From Thermoplasmatales archaeon SW_10_69_26 (GTDB taxonomy: Archaea; Thermoplasmatota; SW-10-69-26), in the NCBI GenBank assembly GCA_003009755.1, contig PXUB01000046.1:1-51083 (forward strand): 51,083 nucleotides of DNA, read 5' to 3'. Both the position numbers and the translations under genes were made by a program. Shown here in pieces: positions 5,404-51,041 of this stretch. The notes beneath the pieces are model-generated. The model was not told the DNA's origin, did no database searches, and was given only the letters and a program-made list of their open reading frames with translations. Numbering within the stretch: position 1 is the stretch's first letter; the number at the start of each line of letters is the position of its first letter.

Positions 5404-6036
5404 ATGTTGCGCGAGTGCCCGGAGCACGGCGACTATCGGGGCGGTGAATGCCCCGATTGCGGGGCCGAGGGTGACTACCTGATGAACGACGAGGAGCTGA
5501 ACCACCTCGGTCGCATCATGGCCGGGATCTTGCGGCACTTCCCGGACCGGTTCGGGCTCGAGATGGACGAGACGGGCTGGATCGATCTCGAGGAGATGGT
5601 CGAGGCGATCCAACGCAAGCGCGATCGGTTCCACTGGCTGTCGCCTCGCCACGTGAACGCCGTCGTCCAGACGGATCCGAAGGGTCGCTACGAGCTTGAG
5701 GACGACCGGATCCGGGCGACGTACGCGCACTCGCTGGACCTAGCATGGGACTTCCCCACCGAGGGGATCCCTGAGACGCTGTACTACCCCGTCTCCGAGG
5801 AGGAGCTGGATCTCGTGCTCGACCGCGGGTTGCAGCCCCGCGACCGCTCGCTCGTGCACCTGTCCGAGACCTACGAGTCGGCGGTCTCGGCGGGCCTGCG
5901 CCGCGTGGAGAACCCGATCATCCTGGAGGTCGCCGCCCAGAAGGCCAACGAGGACGGGAACACGGTCTGGAACGCCGCCAAGACCGTGTACACGACCGAG
6001 GAGGTCCCGCCGGAGTACATCTCCCGCAGCCAGTGA
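5404..6036 (+). CDS. kptA: Archaeal RNA 2'-phosphotransferase, Tpt1/KptA family
   Basis: A 210-residue protein. Residues 5-19 form an archaeal-type zinc-ribbon knuckle (CPEHG ... CPDCG). The winged-helix half follows with the RHFP core arginine (ILRHFPDRFGLEMDETGWI), then KGRYEL and IRATYAHSLDL. The ADP-ribosyltransferase-like half contains LVHLSETYESA and ends in EEVPPEYI. Tpt1/KptA moves an RNA 2'-phosphate to NAD+; in archaea the role may be RNA repair or NAD-dependent end modification. The usual HGT strand reads YYPVS here (LYYPVSEEELD), a noticeable departure from the common LYHGT motif. It stands directly upstream of a tRNA gene. Confidence 0.85.
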   Translation: MLRECPEHGDYRGGECPDCGAEGDYLMNDEELNHLGRIMAGILRHFPDRFGLEMDETGWIDLEEMVEAIQRKRDRFHWLSPRHVNAVVQTDPKGRYELEDDRIRATYAHSLDLAWDFPTEGIPETLYYPVSEEELDLVLDRGLQPRDRSLVHLSETYESAVSAGLRRVENPIILEVAAQKANEDGNTVWNAAKTVYTTEEVPPEYISRSQ

Positions 6037-6096: not shown

Positions 6097-6170
6097 GCCG
6101 GGGTGGCTCAGTCTGGCAGAGCGCCGGACTCATAATCCGTAGGTCTCGGGTTCGAATCCCGATCCCGGCA
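6097..6170 (+). tRNA. tRNA-Met (CAU), elongator-like
   Basis: A 74-nt cloverleaf: acceptor GCCGGGG pairs with TCCCGGC (one G-U), discriminator A; D stem GCTC/GAGC; anticodon loop CTCATAA with anticodon CAT; T arm TCGGG-TTCGAAT-CCCGA. The acceptor begins GCCGG as in archaeal elongator tRNA-Met rather than the GGG of tRNA-Ile2, so Met is preferred. The outermost anticodon-stem pair (27-43) is a C-T mismatch, a small oddity. No CCA is encoded. The last 18 bases recur 129 bp downstream. Confidence 0.9.
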
Positions 6171-6300
6171 TCGATCGCACCCGAGGGTGAGGGATGAGAA
6201 CCTCCGGGTTCGTCTCAAGAGACGGCAACGATCACGCTGTCTCTTGAGACGCCACGGGCCGAGCACCGCGAGGCCCGTCCGCGAATCCCGATCCCGGCAT
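6171..6300 (+). repeat. Structured tRNA-Met trailer ending in a copy of the tRNA 3' end
   Basis: Bases 6282-6300 repeat 6153-6171 exactly (CGAATCCCGATCCCGGCAT: last part of the T arm, the acceptor strand, discriminator and one flanking base). The likeness continues more weakly, 14 of the next 17 bases from 6171 and 6300. In between are three consecutive inverted repeats: GAACC/GGTTC (6198-6211), a perfect 13-bp stem CGTCTCAAGAGAC/GTCTCTTGAGACG (6211-6223, 6239-6251), and ACGGGCC/GGCCCGT (6254-6260, 6272-6278). It may be a scar of a tRNA-targeting element, a partial duplication, or a structured RNA co-transcribed with the tRNA. No credible protein frame covers it. From 6301 to 6511 I see nothing further. 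Confidence 0.6.
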
Positions 6301-10651: not shown

Positions 10652-10785
10652 TAGCCCGGCCAGGATTGCGCACGTCCTCCCTGCGGTCGGACGTGCTCGT
10701 CCGAGACGCGCACGGTTCCCCCGCGCCCCGGACTCGAACTGAAGTTCGAATCCTGGCCCTCGCTGCTTGGGTGTTGTTGGGTCTA
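10652..10785 (-). repeat. tRNA-Gln trailer with direct and inverted copies of tRNA parts
   Basis: TAGCCCGGCCAGGATT at 10652-10667 repeats 10786-10801, the 3'-terminal 16 bases of the minus-strand tRNA-Gln including the discriminator, 134 bp away. A 15-bp inverted copy of T-arm and acceptor bases (GTTCGAATCCTGGCC, 10744-10758) is complementary to 10792-10806. Also present are GCACGTCC/GGACGTGC (10670-10677, 10689-10696) and TCGAAC/GTTCGA (near 10733-10748). This parallels the tRNA-Met trailer in spacing and type. Confidence 0.55.
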
Positions 10786-10858
10786 TAGCCCGGCCAGGAT
10801 TCGAACCTGGGTAACGAGGACCAGAACCTCGTATGATTGGCCTCTACACCACCGGGCT
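10786..10858 (-). tRNA. tRNA-Gln (CUG)
   Basis: A 73-nt cloverleaf on the minus strand: acceptor AGCCCGG/CCGGGCT with discriminator A, anticodon stem CGAGG/CCTCG with loop TTCTGGT (anticodon CTG), T arm with GGTTCGAATCC. No CCA is encoded and no intron is seen. A TATA-like box lies about 35 bp upstream. The 3' 16 bases recur downstream (10652-10667). Confidence 0.92.
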
Positions 10859-10887
10859 AGGACGACACCGGGGCCAACCCCGGACCC

Positions 10888-13732: not shown

Positions 13733-16700
13733 ATGCCCCAACGCCCACGCTCCCCACCGACCCACCGAGCCCTGTCGCTCGTCAGCGCGCTGCTCATGCT
13801 GACGATGGGCCTCGCCCAGGCCCCAGGCCTCGCTCAACCGGCCCCGCCGGACGAGGTGACCGTCGAACCGCCCTTCCTCGGAGCACCCGCCTACGAGGAG
13901 GACTTCCAGGAGGACCGCGGGGGCTGGGAGGCGGACACGCCGCCAGCCCCGGCGATGACGTGGGAGCACGGCGACCCCTCGTCCGGGCCGGGCGAGGCCA
14001 GCCTCGGCGGGAACGTGTGGGCGACGAACCTGGACGGCGACCACCGCCCGTACGAGTGCGGGGTGCTCGTCTCCGGTCCGATCGACCTCACCGACACCTC
14101 GTCGGCCGAGATCGCGATCGAGCACGCCTACGAGCTCTACCAGAGCTCGTGGGAGGGCGACGGCGCCGTGCTGTTCGTCACCACCGACGACGGCGACAGC
14201 TTCGAGCAGGCGTCCCCGGTCGAAGGCTACGACGCCCAGCTGTCCTACAGCGTGCGCGACTGCCTCGACCTCGAGGACCACGCCGCCGGGTTCACCGGCG
14301 AGCAGCTCGACAGGCAGACCTCGACGGTGGACCTCGACCCCTACACGGGCCAACAGATCCGCATCGCGTTCGGGTTCGCCTCGGGCGAGAGCTCCGAGGT
14401 CCGCGAAGGCTGGTACATCGACGGGTACCACCTGACCACCGACGGGCAGACCCGGACCGAGGACCTCGCCACGGACGCGGGGTTCACGGTCGAAGCGTTC
14501 ACGCAGCCCGAGCAACCGCTCGGTTGGGCGTGGGGCAACCCCTCCTCCTCGGAGGGTCCCTCCTTCCAGGAGGCCACACGCCTGTGGGGGACCAACCTCG
14601 ACGGCGACCACGGCAAGAACGAGTGCAGCACGATCGAGTCCCCTCCGATCGACCTCAGCGACGTCACGGCCGAGGCCGCCCCCCAAGCGAGCCTCAGCTG
14701 GGACCAGTGGTTCCGCAGCTCCAGCGCGTCCGGCGGAGGCGTCGTCCAGATCGGCGTCGACGGCGAGTACCACAACGTCGAACCCACGCAGGGCTACCCG
14801 GCCCACCCCGACCAGGCCCTCGACGAATGCCTCGACCACCGCACGCAGGCGACCGGCGCCTTCGCAGGCAGCCTGCAGTACCGCGGCGACGACATGGTCG
14901 AGAGGCGCGCCGACGTCACCGAGTTCCTCGGCGAGGAGATCACGGTCCGCTTCGTGTTCGCCACGACCGACAGCAAGTACCTCGTCGACGGCTGGTACGT
15001 GAACGACGTCGCCATCGAGCTCGGCGCCGGCGCCGACCCCGTCACCGTGGACGTCCCCGAACCCGAGGACGTCCCCGACCAGCAGGCCTTCGAGCCCGTG
15101 GACACCGTCTACCAAGAGGACTTCGAGGGCGACGACGGCAACTGGACCGACGTCGGCGTCGCCACGTGGGAGCACGGCACCCCCGTCAACCCGCCCGAGG
15201 TCCCTGTCGGCAGCCTCGAGATGTGGGGCACCAACCTCCTCGGCGACACGCGCGAGCGCGCCTGCAGCTACGTCGACAGTCCCACGATCTCGCTCCCCGG
15301 CGTGAACACGTACGGGACCGCCGAGACGATCCAGCTCACGCTGGAGACGTTCCGCGACCTGGCCGAACACGTCGATGGAGCCGTCGTCTGGGTGAACGGC
15401 GAGGACGACAACTGGTACCGCATCGAGCCGCGCGAGGGCTACGACGGCCGGCTGGGTGGCTTCGCCGAGATCGTCTGCCTGGGCGGCCCCAAGGTGTCCT
15501 CCACGTACTGGACCGGGGCGGCCGAGAGCGGCGACGACTGGCACATGGACACGTTCGACCTGTCGGCGTTCGCCGGCGAGGACGTCGAGATCCGGCTCGC
15601 CTACACCAGCGGGCTCGACGAGGACCACCGTGGCATCTACCTCGACGAGGCCCGCATCGACGTCGGCGTCGGCGCCAGCGCCTCGCCGGCCGAGCTCACG
15701 CAGCCCCAAGCCGTCGCCGACGAGCTGTGCCAGGAGGACACGCCCGCCTGGAACGTGCAGCGCAACTCCGCCACCTGGTGCCGGGGCGTGCCCACGACCG
15801 GGCCCTCCACGGTGCAGACCGTTTGGGCCACCGACCCGCACGGCGGCCACGAGATCGGCGAGTGCAGCTACCTGACGTCCGAGCCGATCGACGCCAGCAA
15901 CGTGCCCGGCCTGGGCTCGCTGACGCTCAGCTTCGAGCACTTCCTCGACACGCGCCGCAACACCGGCGCGATCGTGGAGATCTCCGACGATGGCGGGCAG
16001 ACGTGGGGCAAGATCTCCCCCGTCGGCGGCTACGACAGCACGTCCTGGGATGACCTGGTCAACGGCTGCCTTGACGGCCCCGACACGATGACGGTCTTCC
16101 AGGACACCGACGACACCTACGAGCCCGTCGAGTTCGACTTGCGCGGCTCCGAGGACAGCACGTTCCAGCTCCGCTTCGCGTTCGCCGGCATGGACCTCCC
16201 CGACCCGGGCTGGTACCTGCGCGACATCCAGCTCGACCGGGGCCTCGGCAGCGTGCCCGTCAGCGGCCTCGCCGCCGCCTCGCAGGCCGCGCCCGCGGCG
16301 CCCGCCGACCGCGGCGCGTCCAGCGTCGATGCGCTGCGCGAGATCGCCGGCCCGAGCCTGACCGAGACCCTCGACGAGGGCCCAAGCGGCCCCGTGGAGG
16401 CGATCGTGACCGGGCCCGCGCACGACACCGACCAGCGCTTCGCGGACCGGCAGACGGCGATGGCCCACTTCGACGAGGCCGCCCAGCCGTTCTTCGACCG
16501 GCTCGAACGCACGGTCGACGCGGTCGGCGGCGAGATCACGGACACCTGGTCCCCCGCGCCGGCCGTCGAGGTCCGCGCGCCGGTGAGCACGCTGGCCGCG
16601 CTCGCCGAGCTCGACGCGACCCGCCACGTCGCTCGGGACCACCCCGGCTCCGTCGAGCTCGTGGAACCGCTGCCGCCCGAGGACGAGGGCGTGTCGCTGA

Positions 16701-35451: not shown

Positions 35452-36969
35452 CTAGTCTTCGATCGGTTGCACCTGCCGGGGCGCCGGCAACGTCGCGTTC
35501 AACGGGACGGCGAGATCGTGGACGAGCAGGGCTCCGCGTTCCAGGCTCTCGTCGGCCGGTCGCACCGGTGTGATCAGCTCCACCGTGTCGTCGCCGTCGA
35601 CGTCGACGGGGTGGGGAGCGCGCAGCATCTTCCAGGGATGCAGGGAGAGGAACCCCTCGGCGCGGCCGTCCTCGGTGGACAGGCGCCAGACGCCGTCGTT
35701 GCCGTCGACGGGCGCGTTGAGCAAAAGCTCCTGGTCGGGGTCCGGGTCGAAGTCGCCGAGCACGATGTTCTGGTTGGACCACCAGGTGTCGATCTCGCGC
35801 ATCCAGACGTCGTCGCCGGTTGCGTCCAGGCGGAAGACGTGGGCGGGACCCAGGCGTTCCCAGTTGCCGGGGCGGTGCCCGATCGTGTTCCAGTCCATGC
35901 CGAAGATGTCGGGGGAGCCGTCGTCGTCGACGTCGTCGACGACGAGGCGCGTGTAGCTCATCGGGTTCGCCCACGCCGGTTCGCGCAGCCACACGAGCTC
36001 GGAGGAGCCGTTGGTACGGTCGCCGTGGATCGCGAAGATGCCCATGCGGTTGCGGTCGTACTGGCCTTCGACGTCGTGGGTTGCGTTCCGGGCGGTGAAC
36101 AGGATCTCCTTGGGCTCCTCGCCGTCGAGGTCGGCCACGGTGGGGGCCACCGTGACCGAGGCCGGGTCCATGTGCTCGGCCGCATCGAAGGTCCAAAGCG
36201 GGTTCCCGCTGGCGGCGTCGAACACGGTGATGAGGCCGGCGTCGGAGGCGAAGACCGCCTCCACGGAGCCCTCCCCGGCGAGGTCGGTGGCCACGGGTTC
36301 GGCGTTGCCGGCGCCCCAGCAGTGGTTCCACATCGTCGAGCCGTCGGTGTCGAGCCCGTAGATGCCCTGCTCTTCGGTCTGGACGAGGATCTCGAGCGTG
36401 TCGTCGCCGTCGAGGTCAGCCAACACGGGGCCCGCGTCCATGCTCGGGCTGTCGTTGCAGTTGGTCAGGCGGTTCTCCCACCGCTTGTCGAAGGCGATCT
36501 CGTCCTCGCCGCCGGCGTCGGGGTTGACCTGCCAGGCGGAGACGTAGCCGGCGTGGTTGGTGACGACGACGGTCGGCGGCTGACCGGGCTCCATCACCGC
36601 GGCCGCGGGAGAGTTGAGGATGCGTTGGATGTGCCAGGCCGGCGGGTAGTGGGGCGACAGCGTGGCCAGCTCCGTGCCGGACTGGGGATCGTAGATGTGG
36701 ACGTCGGCGTCGTTGCTGTGCGCGATGACCTCCTGGATCCCGTCGTCGTCGAGGTCGTAGGTCTCCGGGTCGTTGTCGAACGGGCCCGGCCAGTCGTCGG
36801 CCCCGGACGTGTCGGGATCGCCCAACGTCGCGGTGAGGCCGGGACCGCTGTCGCCGTCCTCGGTCCAGTTGGAGGCCTGGTCGCTGGCGGTGTCCGAGGA
36901 CAGAAGGCACCCGCCCATCGGGGCCGACAACATCACCACGCCGATGAGGAGGGCGCGAGCGCGGGTCAC
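35452..36969 (-). CDS. Lipoprotein with FG-GAP/VCBS-like beta-propeller repeats
   Basis: A 505-residue protein from GTG 36969, overlapping the GT2 stop (GTGA). The N-terminus is a lipoprotein signal (LIGVVMLSAPMGGCLLSS; lipidated Cys21). The body has repeated D-x-D-x-D-G-x-x-E strands: DLDDDGIQEVIAHSND, LADLDGDDTLEILVQTEE, ADLDGEEPKEILFTA, VDDVDDDGSPDIFG, VDVDGDDTVELITP. These form calcium-binding FG-GAP-like blades (integrin-type propeller) on the cell surface. It has no catalytic motif. Its place between a GT2 and two dehydrogenase-like propellers suggests a scaffold or glycan-binding partner. Confidence 0.8.
   Translation of the reverse strand: MTRARALLIGVVMLSAPMGGCLLSSDTASDQASNWTEDGDSGPGLTATLGDPDTSGADDWPGPFDNDPETYDLDDDGIQEVIAHSNDADVHIYDPQSGTELATLSPHYPPAWHIQRILNSPAAAVMEPGQPPTVVVTNHAGYVSAWQVNPDAGGEDEIAFDKRWENRLTNCNDSPSMDAGPVLADLDGDDTLEILVQTEEQGIYGLDTDGSTMWNHCWGAGNAEPVATDLAGEGSVEAVFASDAGLITVFDAASGNPLWTFDAAEHMDPASVTVAPTVADLDGEEPKEILFTARNATHDVEGQYDRNRMGIFAIHGDRTNGSSELVWLREPAWANPMSYTRLVVDDVDDDGSPDIFGMDWNTIGHRPGNWERLGPAHVFRLDATGDDVWMREIDTWWSNQNIVLGDFDPDPDQELLLNAPVDGNDGVWRLSTEDGRAEGFLSLHPWKMLRAPHPVDVDGDDTVELITPVRPADESLERGALLVHDLAVPLNATLPAPRQVQPIED

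Positions 36970-50956: not shown

Positions 50957-51041
<85 letters not shown>

Follow-up and report, generated by a model that had tools for sequence, protein, structure and literature searches.

The rtT repeats of Escherichia coli (~178 bp) stand in tandem behind tyrT, and in each of them the 3' end of the tRNA is repeated; they are not known to have an antisense arm of their own. Phage and plasmid integration of the e14/icd type, at the 3' ends of protein-coding genes, replaces the end of the gene. Islands that target tRNA genes are mapped by an intact tRNA and its displaced 3' fragment (PMC4383910). Integron cassettes with their attC sites are now described from archaea as well (PMC9668308), and REP/RAYT palindromes and MITEs form a further group of small dispersed elements (PMC3733652).

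The window analysed here is the whole of one contig (C46; 51,083 nt, G+C ~69%) of the genome of the uncultured Thermoplasmatales archaeon SW_10_69_26 (2.82 Mb in 49 contigs, 95% complete). (A DUF7121 protein has 80% identity to that of a relative labelled Thermoplasmata archaeon CSSed11_322R1.) Three tRNA genes in the window are followed by units or tails of the kind to be described (Table 1). The tRNA-Gln(CTG) gene lies on the minus strand, so that its downstream side is that of falling coordinates. A first-pass annotation of the sequence had claimed that its last 16 nt, ending at the discriminator base, recur downstream, and they do so exactly (AATCCTGGCCGGGCTA; 134 bp, start to start); the 15-nt inverted copy and the hairpins that it had placed in the interval are likewise there. 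We read the direct copy as the displaced original end of the gene. The antisense segment has two possible partners, the tRNA end (forming hairpin H1) or the copy (forming helix P1). The tRNA-Met gene, for which a downstream copy of the 3' end had also been claimed, has it 129 bp on. The tail of tRNA-Leu(GAG) is identical at 41/41 positions to that of tRNA-Leu(CAG) on contig C47. Its truncation has a parallel in contig C3, which ends inside the array of tRNA-Gly(tcc) (positions 1-293); contigs that end within tail arrays suggest that the assembler breaks at near-identical cassettes, and such arrays are probably undercounted in the assembly. A gene for the RNA 2'-phosphotransferase Tpt1/KptA (5404-6036, plus strand) directly precedes tRNA-Met. 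The tRNA-Gly that ARAGORN calls at 35668-35757 (plus strand), in coding-dense sequence, has no Rfam support and is probably spurious.

Table 1. Features of the three tRNA loci in the window
Feature	Position	Strand	Basis
tRNA-Gln(CTG), gene that hosts the array; CCA not encoded	10786..10858	-	Rfam RF00005, 54 bits; ARAGORN 10785-10859
Spacer from tRNA 3' end to antisense segment, loop of hairpin H1	10759..10785	-	
Antisense segment, 15 nt, perfectly complementary to T-arm and 3' acceptor strand of the tRNA	10744..10758	-	
Hairpin P2 (TCGAAC TTCA GTTCGA)	10734..10749	-	
Hairpin P3, stem sequence differs among units with compensation	10699..10733	-	
Hairpin P4 (GNACG...CGTNC), stem sequence differs among units	10670..10696	-	
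Direct copy of tRNA-Gln 3' end, T-loop to discriminator	10652..10667	-	
Entire tRNA-Gln unit	10657..10758	-	Covariance model R1, 89.7 bits (unit itself in the model)
tRNA-Met, second host gene	6097..6170	+	Rfam
tRNA-Met unit: short antisense segment (GAGGGAT) and P2	6189..6211	+	
tRNA-Met unit: P3 hairpin	6212..6250	+	
tRNA-Met unit: P4 hairpin	6253..6279	+	
tRNA-Met 3'-end copy, 19 nt exact; homology on to 6316 at 91% (35 nt)	6282..6300	+	
tRNA-Leu(GAG), third host gene	50957..51041	+	Rfam
Start of tail element behind tRNA-Leu(GAG), cut by contig end	51043..51083	+	

Of the described systems, rtT is what we take to be the nearest single-locus precedent, sharing tandem repeats with a tRNA 3'-end copy, but its sequence is different and it is confined to one locus. 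In eight tRNA loci searched with Rfam's RtT model nothing matched at E ≤ 1, and in the window the model has no match at its gathering score; no other Rfam family matches there, which rejects the known families as the identity of the units. Like tRNA-targeted islands, the units have an intact adjoining tRNA, a 3' fragment displaced to the far side of the insert, downstream and in the same orientation, a restored gene end, the possibility of tandem arrays, and the T-loop region as boundary. In contrast to islands, they are only 0.1-0.35 kb long, carry an antisense arm to their target and occur by the dozen in a genome; none encodes a protein, and all are too short for the tyrosine integrase of an island, which three larger neighbours do encode. 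Since Islander rejects candidates that are shorter than 2 kb or lack an integrase (PMC4383910), that published search would miss them. With integron cassettes the units share tandem arrays and a conserved structure whose stem sequence is free. They differ in attaching at the end of a host gene, and the attC core boxes R'' (RYYYAAC) and R' (GTTRRRY) are found in 0/15 units, so that the unit is not an attC site. REP palindromes and MITEs are also short, non-coding, dispersed and probably moved in trans, but the units carry copies of host genes and lie in register with gene ends. They are not GTAG-tagged REP sequences, since GTAG is practically absent (one occurrence in the 15 units). CGTC, the tag of REP palindromes for which no dedicated transposase is known, occurs 18 times in them, there as part of the P4 stem instead of an unpaired tag. 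In the open-licence literature we found no report of non-coding cassettes with their own antisense at multiple tRNAs, and nothing on this arrangement under rtT/tyrT or post-tRNA repeats; Rfam has no such entry.

The reading that we favour, with moderate confidence, is that the units are non-coding integrative cassettes of small size (~0.1-0.35 kb), which insert one after another at the 3' ends of genes and supply them with replacement ends. Its basis is genome-wide. Rfam finds 41 tRNA places in the source genome, 39 of which entered counts in which the last 30 nt of each tRNA was searched for within 400 bp and matches of at least 14 nt were accepted. Direct copies of a tRNA's own 3' end lie downstream of 14 of the 39, against 0/1482 swapped tRNA/flank pairs, 0/390 dinucleotide shuffles and 1/39 upstream flanks; own inverted copies lie downstream of 12 (swapped 8/1482, shuffled 0/390, upstream 0/39). 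One or the other is present at 20 of the 39, about half of the tRNA genes. The controls rule out chance as the origin of the copies. The scan that the first-pass annotation had called for, over 200 bp behind every tRNA, is thereby carried out with a wider limit, and its outcome is positive. The recurrent process that this annotation had proposed on the strength of two tRNAs is supported by the presence of the same arrangement at many tRNAs of this genome and of two others, and tRNA-Gln and tRNA-Met are not alone in having a 3'-end copy at 100-150 bp. The proposal of equal spacing survives in part, for the 10 of 15 direct copies that begin at 92-117 nt from the tRNA; the remainder begin at 185-324 nt. 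The units are specific for their targets, stand serially in tandem and are bounded by displaced gene ends. Copies start in the T-loop and most stop at or near the tRNA end, with homology continuing into the trailer at some loci, and several loci, such as those of Arg-tcg and Leu-tag, hold two or three units in tandem. That the copies are own-specific and downstream only argues for an integrative cassette, as does their extent from T-loop to end, which is the signature used for mapping tRNA-targeted islands.

The flanks of these tRNAs are also rich in palindromes. Perfect stems of at least 11 bp number 2.25/kb behind tRNAs of the source genome and 0.45/kb before them, 0.105/kb in a 400-kb sample away from known tRNAs (it included one tRNA-Pro), and 0.09/kb behind the tRNAs of the relative G001. 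The density behind tRNAs is ~20 times that of the sample, which, together with G001, rules out a generic hairpin richness of the genome as the cause. (Non-tRNA loci were drawn from the 400-kb sample and from covariance model matches.) Proceeding from the tRNA, a unit comprises a spacer of ~10-30 nt, the antisense segment, P2 (a small hairpin, GAACC..GGTTC), a long P3, P4 and the tRNA-end copy. Fifteen units align well and share a fold of four helices, in which the pairing of antisense with copy, P1, closes a four-way structure around the three hairpins. The hairpins covary: pairing over all 27 pairs is retained in 94.6% of cells versus 76.6% when shuffled, both sides have changed in 9/10 pairs of P3, and the covariation score is 0.518 versus 0.195 for shuffled and at most 0.10 for slid versions. 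As read from the alignments, linkers and apical loops appear conserved, which RNA function would fit too. Homologous tails also stand behind different tRNAs (86% over 91 nt for Gly-gcc and Leu-cag).

The same arrangement is found behind two protein-coding genes, AspRS (a class II synthetase) and COX3. The AspRS gene ends in TTC CCA CGA GAC AGA GAC CGA CTG AGG CCA TAG, behind which come 18 nt of antisense; ~100 bp on stands a displaced copy, TTC CCG AGA GAT CGG GAC CGA TTG CGT CCA TAG, with its own antisense, different from the proximal one. Both ends encode FPRDRDRLRP*, and 8/8 nucleotide changes between them are synonymous (simulated p 2.5e-6), as are 4/4 between the COX3 end, VYAIVYLQWI*, and its displaced copy (p 1.3e-3), where the p values assume even substitution and both cases were found by peptide similarity. 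The peptide scan, of 453 CDS ends, is itself blind to codon choice, and neither of its two high-scoring cases has a non-synonymous change. By eye, further displaced copies appear more decayed, and a more distant AspRS remnant seems to retain part of the peptide only. A displaced end that still spells protein was once a working gene end or came from an element selected to restore one. Such ends fit the logic of integrative elements and are hard to derive from tRNA processing or slippage; recoded C-termini behind protein genes point to inserted replacement ends, not tRNA processing, as the primary cause. In their recoded, peptide-preserving replacement ends AspRS and COX3 resemble integration of the e14/icd type, from which the units differ in being tiny, non-coding and serial and in forming a hairpin at the gene end. 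These cases are exceptional: direct copies of at least 14 nt follow 2 of 339 CDS ends and inverted copies follow 1, close to the swapped controls, so that a general trait of all gene 3' ends is rejected. At two further loci (L115 7126 and L121 15208) the 3' end of a protein gene has its own antisense arm and a P4-like hairpin, with the stop codon in the loop; no displaced copy was found within 300 bp.

Larger elements share these sites. Three Phage_integrase (PF00589) genes are present in the genome, next to tRNA-Gly(ccc), -Phe and -Glu(ctc); each belongs to an element of 4-13 kb that uses the same tRNA ends as the cassettes. Past these elements, at distances of 4.4, 13.4 and 8.4 kb, respectively, cassette arrays with the end of the tRNA in question resume; it follows that large elements and cassettes have one attachment point in common.

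The distribution of the units is patchy. Covariance model R1 matches ~24 places in the source genome at E < 1e-4, most of them directly behind tRNAs, the strongest being downstream of the tRNA and on its strand. The genomes compared included one other of the source family (G001) and seven of the class. In G001, the nearest relative, of a sister genus, 0/28 tRNAs have copies, direct and antisense alike. Among 390 genomes of the phylum, R1 has one further match, in G021, of another class, where own copies of at least 12 nt are found at 9/32 tRNAs versus 2/992 swaps and tRNA-Ala(tgc) is followed by exact tandem units of 145 bp. Model R2, built from G021, adds G010 of the same family (4/4 matches directly behind tRNAs) and matches the source-genome arrays weakly. 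Each model matches 2/390 genomes, three in all, in searches whose strict filters and lineage-biased models leave absence elsewhere unproven. Homologous tails behind different tRNAs, absence from G001 and rarity in the phylum all favour a cassette. Units at tRNA-Ala(ggc), -Glu(ttc) and -Thr(ggt) are common to G010 and G021, which long vertical residence would fit too; at the first two, stem sequences differ between the genomes. Carriage of the units by viruses was considered and rejected, since none of 60 stretches of viral contigs that matched a degenerate pattern has a credible R1 match.

According to the cassette reading, insertion would occur at a gene's 3' end, mostly that of a tRNA gene and rarely that of a conserved protein gene; the left end of the cassette would be the replacement copy that restores the gene, the old end would be displaced downstream to survive as the direct copy, and repeated insertion at one point would yield tandem arrays. 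The antisense segment directly behind the replacement end would have the gene end fold as hairpin H1; in the hairpins that come next, stem sequence is free and linkers and loops are more constant. The joining would be done in trans by a recombinase of the tyrosine type, with the T-loop/3' end of the tRNA as the point where cassette and gene end meet. By analogy with integron attC, the antisense arm may allow a single cassette strand to present the target as a duplex. The cassettes may be mobile at present. Several considerations count against this reading. The cassettes encode no protein, three integrase genes are few for ~20 occupied tRNAs, a mobile element that changed targets would have to alter copy and antisense arm together, a simple T-loop crossover would give direct copies that overlap the whole T-loop, which these do not, and no empty/occupied strain pair was seen among the genomes compared.

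Among the alternatives, a structured 3'-trailer RNA has the most to recommend it, although we think it unlikely. The array would be transcribed with its tRNA, and the antisense arm would alternate between the tRNA end and the copy, controlling maturation or yielding a stable small RNA. The strong covariation is what such an RNA would show, loop motifs are similar across distant genomes (P3 CGGYRRRGA and P4 GAGCGNAGCGA, as read from alignments), and the top R1 matches have the expected strand and position. Compensation in DNA palindromes can also be obtained by template switching, however, so that covariation alone is no proof of RNA. Entire stems differ between orthologous tRNAs, the sister genus manages without, no Rfam family matches, and a trailer has no need of tandem gene-end copies or of the same design, with recoded copies, behind AspRS and COX3. 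A structured trailer could, at the same time, coexist with cassette insertion.

Template switching is at the centre of a second alternative, a good deal less probable, in which local replication errors (slippage, or a switch of template, at hairpins close to the ends of heavily transcribed genes) make the copies and keep the palindromes perfect without selection. This would account for own-specific antisense and compensatory stems in DNA, and the exact tandem duplications of G021 are in its favour; a shared element is nevertheless required by the homology of tails behind unrelated tRNAs and the likeness of loops in different classes, the synonymous-only recoding of AspRS is unexpected, and very few CDS ends are affected. 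Casposon-like or other cut-and-paste transposition, with the repeated tRNA end as target-site duplication, has the precedent of casposases that target tRNA 3' ends and insert in tandem (PMC6977970, PMC6563490). We regard it as very improbable: Cas1 (PF01867) was not detected in this 95%-complete genome by a search whose controls were positive, no terminal inverted repeats were seen, a duplication would begin identical, not recoded, and in M. mazei the 14-bp duplication shares no more than the final 4 bp with the tRNA (PMC6977970), whereas 14-19 bp lie inside the tRNA here.

As cassettes the units would be integrative elements of a new form, and there is a fair chance that they constitute a class by themselves. 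It is possible, but we say so tentatively, that this is a new archaeal class of gene-end cassettes, protein-free and equipped with an antisense arm and a recoded host 3' end, whose serial insertion by a recombinase acting on a self-folded single strand leaves a time-ordered stack of former ends at each tRNA gene. Site-specific gene-end integration would then be reduced to ~100 non-coding bp and repeated at a large part of the tRNA genes. The reading would also account for a structure of tRNA flanks that Islander's length and integrase filters exclude, and a natural record of successive insertions would be at hand. Two questions arise from this: how inserts are matched to so large a variety of targets, and whether tRNA maturation is affected.

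Other structured tails accompany those described. A second family of ~100 nt (..CTCCCGTCGCCAG..GCTGACGGTGTCGC..), 74-86% alike between different tRNAs, is found at Gln-ttg (L004), Gly-gcc (L021), Leu-cag (L041), Met (L025) and Thr-cgt (L002) and sometimes shares one cassette with the first. The tRNA-Thr(ggt) loci of G021 (L154) and G010 (L261) have a different tail family that is common to the two genera; it includes a GATGAAACTTT hairpin and repeats 24 nt of the T-arm and 3' end. The archaeal SRP RNA gene on contig C25 (14925-15239, minus strand) is likewise followed closely by a hairpin array, at 14650-14911 (L120).
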